Source: an uncultured Coriobacteriia bacterium (GTDB lineage Bacteria; Actinomycetota; Coriobacteriia; Anaerosomatales; PALSA-660). From it: DNA of 36,815 nt. This document shows, one piece after another, positions 3,318 to 22,538 of this stretch (the stretch's first letter is position 1; the number at the start of each line of letters is the position of its first letter). The translations under genes and the position numbers were made by a program. Under the pieces are notes generated by a model, which made no database searches, was not told the origin of the DNA, and saw nothing but the letters and a program-made list of their open reading frames with translations. The stretch lies in NCBI GenBank assembly GCA_903831865.1, contig CAIKZH010000076.1:1-36815 (forward strand), in the 5' to 3' direction.

Positions 3318-4090
3318 CGCGGGACCGGGTCCGGTCCGGCGACGCCGTTGTCGGAGACGCTGTCGCTCCGCCCGCTGCGGGAACGCTCAGTCTCCTCCGC
3401 ATCGGACAGGCGGGTGTAGACGGGCAGCAGCGTACCGGGGTCCCCGTCGCCGAGAGTCCCGGCCGCACGCCCCCGCCAGGCCGCCAGGAGCAGCGACTCG
3501 CCCGTCGGCGCCCACATCGACTCGGGCGCGACCTGCGCCCGCCCGCCGAGAGCATCCTCGAAGACGCTCCGGTACTTGCGCAGCCCGCCGCCCGCCAGCA
3601 GCAGCGGGCGATCCAGAGCCGACCACCTCTCGGCGATGCGTTCCGGGCTGGAGACCTCGTCCGGGCCTGTGCGGTCCACGCGCCCGCCCGAGATGTCGAA
3701 GGCGGCGGGGTAGACCTCGCCACGCATCGCGTCCCCAAGCACACCCAGGAGCGTCTCGGAAAGGGCGAAGCGCTCAGCAACAGCATCGAGCGTCCCGACT
3801 CCGAGCAAGGGCACGCCAAGCCCCTGTGCGATGCCTTTCGCAGTCGCGACCCCGATGCGCACGCCGGTGAAGGACCCGGGACCGCGCCCGACCACCACCG
3901 CTCCGACGTCCGCGATCACATGTCCGCTCGACTCTAGGAGCCGCATGATGCTGGGGACGAGATGCGTGAGCGCTGCGCGCGGCGCCTCCAGGTTCGTCTC
4001 CGCGATGAGCGAAGCGCCCTCGTCGCGGATCTCCCCCAGCGCGACCGCGGTCATGGAGGTCGATGTATCGAGGGCCAGGGTGAGGGTCAT
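3314..4090 (-). CDS. tsaB: tRNA t6A37 biosynthesis protein TsaB
   Basis: Partner of TsaD in the bacterial threonylcarbamoyl-adenosine complex; an inactive ASKHA-fold relative of TsaD. The 258-residue protein starts MTLTLALDTSTSMTAVAL and contains the TsaB signature GRGPGSFTGVRIGVA at about residues 69-83. The ATG at 4090 is chosen because it overlaps the tsaE stop as ATGA and begins the conserved fold; the frame is open further upstream, but that stretch is a shadow of tsaE. The C-terminal 30 residues are Ser/Arg/Asp-rich and probably disordered. It sits in the operon tsaE-tsaB-rimI/tsaD. Confidence 0.93.
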   Translation of the reverse strand: MTLTLALDTSTSMTAVALGEIRDEGASLIAETNLEAPRAALTHLVPSIMRLLESSGHVIADVGAVVVGRGPGSFTGVRIGVATAKGIAQGLGVPLLGVGTLDAVAERFALSETLLGVLGDAMRGEVYPAAFDISGGRVDRTGPDEVSSPERIAERWSALDRPLLLAGGGLRKYRSVFEDALGGRAQVAPESMWAPTGESLLLAAWRGRAAGTLGDGDPGTLLPVYTRLSDAEETERSRSGRSDSVSDNGVAGPDPVPR

Positions 4091-18922: not shown

Positions 18923-20749
<1,827 letters not shown>

Positions 20750-20853
20750 GTGTCATGACCTCCGGGTGTCGTCGATGCAGGTATGCCGACGGACATGTGG
20801 GCGCGGACGCGGAGACCGCCCTGCCGTCGGTGGGTGTGCGCGAGTCGCGCTCG

Positions 20854-21010
20854 GGTCCTGTTTCTCCACACCGTTCTGTCTCCGGGGTCGCCCTCGGGCT
20901 TTGTCGGTGTGGTCACGACATCGGGATGCGATGCCGGGGAGCCATCCGCCGAATGTTTCGATCAGCTCCCACCTCGTCGACTGCGCTGACCAGCGCGCAG
21001 TCCCGGCGCT
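20854..21010 (-). ncRNA. glmS ribozyme/riboswitch
   Basis: The 393-bp gap between glmM and glmS holds the self-cleaving glmS RNA. Read on the minus strand, the cleavage site is A-GCGCC, with cleavage expected between 21010 and 21009. P1 pairs 21002-20995 with 20986-20979 (8 bp, perfect). The core is GACGAGGTGGGAGC followed by GATCGAA and TTCGGCGGATGGCTCCC, nearly identical to the core of known glmS ribozymes; GGGAGC pairs with GCTCCC. P2 pairs GCCGG (21007-21003) with CCGGC (20937-20933). P4 pairs 20912-20905 with 20873-20866 (8 bp), with the small P4.1 hairpin inside. The 3' limit and P3 are approximate. The RNA sits about 105 nt before the glmS ATG. Confidence 0.93.
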
Positions 21011-21120
21011 TGTGGATCACGCTACGCGTCCGTGTATGGTCGGGCAGCAGCTCCCTCCGACCGCGCCCTTGGGTGGTGCCGCGCGACAGGGTCATCGTAG
21101 CAGAGCGTCCGCAGGCCTTG

Positions 21121-21138
21121 CGTCACGATAGCGTGACG
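21121..21138 (-). terminator. Short hairpin after glmM
   Basis: A perfect 7-bp stem, CGTCACG and CGTGACG, with a 4-nt loop, starts 4 bp past the glmM stop. No U-run follows, so it may be a weak terminator, an mRNA end stabiliser or a chance palindrome. If it terminates, glmS needs a promoter in 21011-21120, where only a lone -10-like TACGAT (21099-21094) was seen. Confidence 0.35.
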
Positions 21139-21142
21139 GACC

Positions 21143-22474
21143 TCATCCGAGTTGGGCGTGGACCACCTGCACCAGACGGGCGACGACAGCCTGCGCCGTC
21201 TGGCTCTCGGAGGCCTCCGCCATCACCCTGACGACCGGTTCTGTACCGCTCGCTCGCACCAGCACTCTCCCCCGTTCGCCGAGGGCGGCCTTCTCGGCCT
21301 CGATCGCCCCGGCTATCGCGGTGTTGCCTGGAAGTCCGGACAGGTCGGAGACCCGCACGTTCTCGAGGACCTGCGGGTAGCGTCGCATGACCCGCTTCAA
21401 CTCGGACAGCGGTCGTCCAGACGACCGGACGGCGCCGAGTAGCTGGATCGCGGTGATGAGACCGTCGCCCGTGGTCGTGTGCTGCAGGAAGATGATGTGG
21501 CCCGACTGCTCGCCTCCGAGCGCCGCTCCTGACCTGCGCATCTCCTCAAGCACATACCGGTCCCCCACGGCCGTCGTGCGGACGTCCACGCCCATCTCGC
21601 GCATCGCGACGATGAACCCGAGATTAGTCATGACGGTACCGACGACCACATCGCCGGTGAGGGTGCCGGCCTCGTGCATCATCCTGGCGCAGATCGCCAT
21701 GATCTCGTCGCCGTCCACCTCGGCCCCGGTCTCGTCGACCGCGAGGGTCCGGTCGGCGTCGCCGTCATGGGCGATCCCGAGGTCGGCGCCGGCCGCACGC
21801 ACCGCCTGCGTCAGCACTTCAAGATGCGTCGACCCGCAACCGAGGTTGATGTCTGTCCCGTTCCAGTCGCAGTCGATCTCGTCGACGTGAGCGCCCAGTT
21901 CGCGAAGGGCCAGGGCGCTCGTGGTCGATCCAGCCCCGTGGCCGCAGTCGAGCACGATCCTCAGACCCTCGAGCCGCTCAGGCGCCGTAGCGACGGCGTG
22001 CCGGACGTAGCGCGCGACAGCGTCCTCCAGCCGCGACACGATGCCGACCTCGGCTCCCGTCGGCCGCTCGGGATGGTCCGAACCGGCGACGAACGCCTCG
22101 ATCGCGCCCTCCACGTCGTCGGCGAGCTTGAAACCGTCGCGGTCGAAGAACTTGATGCCGTTGTACTCCGCCGGGTTGTGGGATGCGGAGATCACGGCGC
22201 CCGCATCTGCGCCGAGCTCCCTTGTGAGGAAGGCGACCGCCGGCGTCGGCACGATGCCGGCAAGCAGTGCATCGGCCCCCGCCGCGCCGATGCCTGCGAC
22301 GAGAGCGGCCTCGAGCATGTCGCCGCTGCGCCTGGTGTCCCGGCCGATGACGATCCGGCCTCCCTGCTTCGCGAGGATGCGGCCCGCAGCCTCCCCCAAG
22401 CGGAAGGCGAGCTCGGGAGAGAGATCAGCGTTCGCGATGCCGCGGACGCCATCGGTTCCGAAGAGTCGGCCCAT
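21143..22474 (-). CDS. glmM: Phosphoglucosamine mutase
   Basis: Interconverts glucosamine 6-phosphate and glucosamine 1-phosphate, the step after GlmS. The 443-residue protein starts MGRLFGTDGVRGIANADLSP and has the phosphoserine loop VISASHNPAEYNG (active Ser98), the Mg2+ loop DGDADR and the C-terminal phosphate loop RASGTEPVVRVM. The ATG at 22474 is preferred, with AAGGGA nine bases before it; an in-frame GTG at 22492 has poor spacing. It follows rpsI across a strong hairpin and precedes the glmS leader. Confidence 0.96.
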   Translation of the reverse strand: MGRLFGTDGVRGIANADLSPELAFRLGEAAGRILAKQGGRIVIGRDTRRSGDMLEAALVAGIGAAGADALLAGIVPTPAVAFLTRELGADAGAVISASHNPAEYNGIKFFDRDGFKLADDVEGAIEAFVAGSDHPERPTGAEVGIVSRLEDAVARYVRHAVATAPERLEGLRIVLDCGHGAGSTTSALALRELGAHVDEIDCDWNGTDINLGCGSTHLEVLTQAVRAAGADLGIAHDGDADRTLAVDETGAEVDGDEIMAICARMMHEAGTLTGDVVVGTVMTNLGFIVAMREMGVDVRTTAVGDRYVLEEMRRSGAALGGEQSGHIIFLQHTTTGDGLITAIQLLGAVRSSGRPLSELKRVMRRYPQVLENVRVSDLSGLPGNTAIAGAIEAEKAALGERGRVLVRASGTEPVVRVMAEASESQTAQAVVARLVQVVHAQLG

Positions 22475-22538
22475 CTGTCGCGGTCCCTTCACTTCTCCGG
22501 CGACCTGGCGAGGACGCTGCCGAATGATACCGCACGCA

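Follow-up and report, generated by a model that had tools for sequence, protein, structure and literature searches.

A canonical glmS ribozyme in the glmS leader of a Coriobacteriia genome, with relatives before nagB in another family of the class

The leader of glmS in this Coriobacteriia genome raises the question of whether it carries a glmS ribozyme, as the original prediction proposed, and whether such an RNA would be a distinct variant of the class. We scanned the window, that is, the whole stretch of 36,815 nucleotides analysed here, with cmscan against all 4227 families of Rfam 15. The scan resulted in one match above threshold anywhere in the window, to the glmS family RF00234, at 21021-20856 on the minus strand. 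The match runs from end to end of the model (positions 1-167 of 167) and scored 95.1 bits with an E-value of 4.2e-21, whereas the curated cut-off of the family is 37 bits. The Infernal check of the minus strand with the Rfam glmS model, which had been proposed originally, was therefore significant, and a glmS ribozyme lies in the leader of glmS. A full-length malK-III match at 29383-29289 on the minus strand was rejected, as it reached 30.5 bits against a cut-off of 50, falls inside the 3' end of the S13 gene and is probably due to chance.

The ribozyme sits 107 nt upstream of the glmS start codon and downstream of glmM; both genes were identified as NCBIfam equivalogs above the curated cut-offs. 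The expected actinobacterial gene block, L13-S9-glmM-[RNA]-glmS-acpS-nnr(YjeF)-...-alr, was confirmed by Pfam. The features of the locus are the following:

18923..20749, minus strand: glmS, glutamine--fructose-6-phosphate transaminase (Pfam; TIGR01135, 847 bits, cut-off 418)
20758..20763, minus strand: Shine-Dalgarno sequence GGAGGT of glmS (sequence)
20856..21021, minus strand: glmS ribozyme, full Rfam model (RF00234, 95.1 bits)
20926-20924 with 20858-20856, minus strand: remnant P3.1, 3 bp (aligned-column comparison)
20866..20912, minus strand: P4, 8 bp, 20912-20905 with 20873-20866 (RF00234 match, fold)
20916..20936, minus strand: P3, extended 8-bp hairpin with the 5-nt loop CAUCC (fold, helix comparison)
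20937..20978, minus strand: catalytic core, with GACGAGG at 20978-20972, AUCGA and UUCGGCGG (RF00234 match; invariant columns in 39 relatives)
20970-20965 with 20942-20937, minus strand: P2 (sequence)
21008-21005 with 20950-20947, minus strand: P2.2, CGCC with GGCG (sequence)
20979..21002, minus strand: P1, perfect 8-bp helix, 21002-20995 with 20986-20979 (sequence, fold, covariation in relatives)
21094..21102, minus strand: predicted extended -10 promoter TGCTACGAT (same element across the loci of the order)
21122..21137, minus strand: palindrome GTCACGCTATCGTGAC, located upstream of the promoter and possibly an operator (conserved by compensating changes in congeners and in a further family member)
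21143..22492, minus strand: glmM, phosphoglucosamine mutase, the upstream neighbour (Pfam; TIGR01455, 547 bits, cut-off 448)

The helices P1, P2, P2.2 and P4 of the glmS ribozyme are all present, as is the invariant core GACGAGG ... AUCGA ... UCGGCGG, and the perfect P1, P2, P2.2, the core and the 8-bp P4 were recovered by model match, sequence and fold just where they had been predicted. A21010 is followed by G21009, which opens GCGCC; the predicted cleavage-site sequence A-GCGCC is thus in place, and 21010/21009 is the expected cleavage position. By homology, G20975 is expected to be the catalytic guanine. The inner P4 stem carries a GCGA loop of the GNRA type (20891-20888) and one A.C mismatch (20894/20885). 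Across 39 aligned sequences, 29 of the 37 consensus pairs showed compensatory changes. AGCGCC, GACGAGG, UCGA and UCGGCGG were invariant in all 39, and the A of AUCGA was kept in all but one. Because P2.2 is invariant, it is uninformative on covariation either way.

Compared with the known RF00234 ribozymes (Bacillus subtilis, B. anthracis and Thermoanaerobacter tengcongensis), the window RNA is alike in the whole model, cleavage site, P1, P2, P2.2, catalytic core, P4, GNRA loop and position in the glmS leader. It differs in its longer P3 hairpin and its P3.1 of only 3 bp, in its host, a G+C-rich member of the Coriobacteriia, and in the extended -10 promoter that sets the ribozyme apart from glmM. 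Ribozymes of this class with extra stems in the core are reportedly known from Deinococcus-Thermus, according to a 2011 abstract; the window RNA likewise belongs to the class outside the Firmicutes, but lacks the extra core stems.

The original prediction had described P3 as divergent, which holds: P3 is an 8-bp hairpin, and only 3 bp of the P3.1 pseudoknot are left. The RNA is not, however, a distinct variant as had been suggested: its core is of the usual type, and what deviates lies at the periphery and occurs in just two species of the genus. P3.1, formed by the P3 loop with the 3' tail, covaries clearly in relatives (columns 110-114 with 178-182) and has at least 4 bp in 37 of the 39 aligned sequences; only the window and one congener (L028) have 3 bp, while three congeners of the window species retain a 5-bp P3.1. 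The family score was reached despite this reduction in a peripheral element, which is species-level drift and no separate class. An unconstrained search for the longest helix joining L3 to the tail gave nothing better than shuffled tails; its search space was too loose to be informative, and the aligned-column test was used instead.

The survey of glmS leaders in related genomes, also proposed originally, covered 61 genomes: that of the window and those of relatives, most of them from the same order. The ribozyme was above the family cut-off in 48 of them, with glmS directly downstream in every case. It is common in this lineage, and the window ribozyme is no oddity there. A class sample of 298 genomes gave 54 above the cut-off, 49 from the order of the window and five from another family of the class, f17; in the named gut Coriobacteriia (Adlercreutzia, Slackia, Collinsella and Enorma), no glmS ribozyme was found. 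In a phylum sample, 75 of 396 genomes carried it. Additionally, it precedes glmS in two Acidimicrobiia MAGs, one Acetomicrobium MAG and one MAG labelled Proteobacteria, and an Anaerolineae MAG has a sub-threshold but correctly placed ribozyme before glmS. Since named genomes across these groups carry it, the RNA class is broadly spread. The Anaerolineae RNA (L213:1501-1710, 29.5 bits) is placed precisely in the leader of glmS, has a large insertion within its core region and is probably a variant under-scored by the Rfam model; in this RNA and in some phylum loci (e.g. L034, L199), the insertions lie between AUCGA and UCGGCGG or nearby. A partial 26-bit glmS match in G542 (L219) was discarded as chance, as it falls inside a hisC-like coding frame. 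The named GlmS proteins nearest to that of the window come from Actinomycetota MAGs and Coriobacteriia, with 55-59% identity. The host is assigned to the Coriobacteriia because one genome in its class has a GlmS that shares 94% identity with the Adlercreutzia mucosicola protein.

Thirteen relatives were without the ribozyme. Six of these have a GlmS 73-77% identical with a leader free of the RNA, in three the identity of GlmS is only about 50%, read as a replacement, and in one the glmS gene is broken by contig ends; two gave only weak GlmS matches to other amidotransferases (at most 34%), and the last gave none. The replaced genes and bare leaders together indicate that the switch was lost both through gene replacement and through loss of the leader RNA. 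At L148, L149 and L150 (genomes G055, G044 and G054), glmS was apparently replaced together with its switch.

In 44 of the 48 loci of the window's order, the stretch separating glmM from the ribozyme contains an extended -10 element, TGNTANN(A/C)T, that ends 48-87 nt upstream of the cleavage site; shuffled sequences yielded it in 0.73 loci on average and in four at most. A sigma-70 consensus scan found no promoter, because this extended -10 lacks a recognisable -35; the element surfaced only by comparison. Judged by sequence, glmS probably has its own promoter downstream of glmM, from which transcription would be expected to begin near 21087, some 7 nt past TGNTANNAT. The leader from this promoter would be about 340 nt long, and cleavage would free a 5' piece of about 77 nt. 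Upstream of the promoter, the palindrome occurs likewise in L028, L174, L177, L179 and L184, as GTCA-N8-TGAC or, in L177, GTAA-N8-TTAC; it is possibly an operator, or a hairpin at the glmM end. Elsewhere in the order, an CCGTCACC or CCGTAACC element (CCGTMACC) is often found some 18 nt ahead of the -10.

The promoter bears on whether the ribozyme acts on a joint glmM-glmS transcript, cutting the genes apart and also shaping glmM expression. Such a transcript has in its favor that glmM lies upstream on the same strand, that read-through is possible and that no clear intrinsic terminator was found between the two genes on that strand. The conservation of the extended -10 in 44/48 loci between glmM and the ribozyme argues against it and suggests that the switch acts on glmS alone, so that we consider the joint transcript unlikely and glmM probably a separate transcript unit. 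Thus, the original remark that the RNA directly follows glmM was right about position, whereas shared control is probably not the case.

A second alternative is that the window ribozyme is a decaying copy that cleaves poorly through its eroded P3.1 and inner P4 pair, with glmS becoming unregulated. The 3-bp P3.1 shared only with L028 among the 39 sequences and the entire loss of the ribozyme in the six relatives with orthologous glmS would fit this reading. In a mutational study in B. subtilis, the sensitive sites included the P3.1 strand that faces L3 (PMC11602151), so a slower window ribozyme is possible, and the short P3.1 and the A.C mismatch may slow folding or cleavage. Nevertheless, the same work found most P3 and P4 positions tolerant and the core intolerant (PMC11602151); in the window RNA the core, P1, P2, P2.2, P4 and GNRA loop are all intact, P3 has been rebuilt as a strong 8-bp hairpin, and 95 bits is mid-range among the relatives. 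We regard decay as quite improbable. A chance match, an assembly artefact or misplaced contaminant sequence has even less room: the genome is a draft in 192 contigs with about 2% estimated contamination, but the E-value of 4e-21 speaks against this reading, and congeners show the same RNA, gene order and promoter region. The E-value and the presence of the RNA in congeners and relatives refute it, and its probability is negligible.

A canonical glmS ribozyme that would give self-cleavage triggered by glucosamine-6-phosphate (GlcN6P), and with it negative feedback, is therefore the reading in which we place very high confidence. In the glmS ribozyme class, GlcN6P serves as the cleavage cofactor and the fragment with a 5'-hydroxyl is degraded by RNase J, a decay shown only in Bacillus. 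By analogy, the transcript starting near 21087 would fold into a preformed pocket, accumulating GlcN6P would bind the ribozyme as a cofactor, and the bound RNA would cut itself between A21010 and G21009. The downstream fragment, with its 5'-hydroxyl end, would then be degraded by RNase J, so that GlmS synthesis would drop and the first step of amino-sugar and cell-wall synthesis would be under negative feedback. An RNase J gene is present in the genome of the window (TIGR00649, 575 bits, cut-off 400). A homologue of NagB was not found in this genome (draft 96% complete) with the NagB of f17 as query; GlcN6P may therefore have no deaminase outlet in the organism, although the result is only suggestive.

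With this locus, the range of a well-studied riboswitch and drug target grows by an order of Coriobacteriia in which its presence is the rule and not the exception. The locus also suggests an old origin, or frequent transfer, of the glmS ribozyme within the deeper Actinomycetota.

A different arrangement, absent from the window itself, was found in f17, where we covered 140 genomes. Twenty-three of them, all within two genera, carry 24 glmS-class ribozymes, of which 11 lie before glmS and 13 before nagB (L243, L244, L246, L248-L250, L253-L258 and L260); in one example, the ribozyme L214:2034-2187 precedes nagB at L214:2214-3005. The NagB protein is an equivalog (TIGR00502, 384 bits, cut-off 237). 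Genome G761 (L262) has ribozyme-glmS-ribozyme-nagB in tandem on one strand, with ribozymes at 1211-1363 and 3522-3671. The nagB-type ribozymes form their own clade (support of 0.985 for the split that sets it apart), which includes members from both genera; the duplication is therefore probably older than the divergence of the two genera. They keep the catalytic core, 97.7% of the cells pair, and all five P3.1 pairs change on both sides; the covariation score of 0.290 exceeded both the 0.174 obtained from shuffles and the maximum of 0.088 obtained by sliding. This pattern indicates that the structure is under selection.

From the genomes with a nagB-ribozyme, 12 of 13 keep glmS (one draft gave no match), and only in G761 does glmS still have a ribozyme. 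Three ribozyme-glmS genomes were tested, and they were without this type of nagB and had only a 40% paralogue. In both loci that were examined, nagB is followed by a gene similar to the acetyltransferase part of GlmU, and at L217 glmM is near nagB; these surroundings resemble a synthesis rather than a breakdown neighbourhood. The link between ribozyme and nagB in f17 is well supported. We consider it somewhat more likely than not that duplication of a glmS-class ribozyme was followed by its recruitment to nagB, where GlcN6P would destroy the message of GlcN6P deaminase. NagB is normally thought to consume GlcN6P; the simplest sense of a ribozyme on nagB would be that NagB works in the direction of GlcN6P synthesis, and our guess is that the f17 enzyme runs towards GlcN6P from fructose-6-phosphate and ammonia. 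If true, nagB would give a ribozyme class that has long been seen as glmS-only a second target of a rare kind, and the physiological direction of NagB in these bacteria would become directly testable. The abstract mentioned above (McCown 2011) is said to report two ribozymes outside glmS mRNAs. In the literature searched, no glmS ribozyme was described on nagB.

Regarding other possible targets, glmS lay directly downstream on the same strand in each of the first 60 loci (60/60) and directly downstream in 96 of 98 loci in a wider check. The remaining two, from family f41, had no nearby glmS start, and a new target gene was considered and rejected, as the gene order proved to be glmM-ribozyme-glnA-glmS, with glnA inserted. 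This order is seen at L280, L281 and L283, in the small AT-rich genomes of f41; the product of glnA, glutamine synthetase, makes the cosubstrate of GlmS. The core at L280 and L281 reads AGCGCA and UCAGCGG instead of AGCGCC and UCGGCGG.
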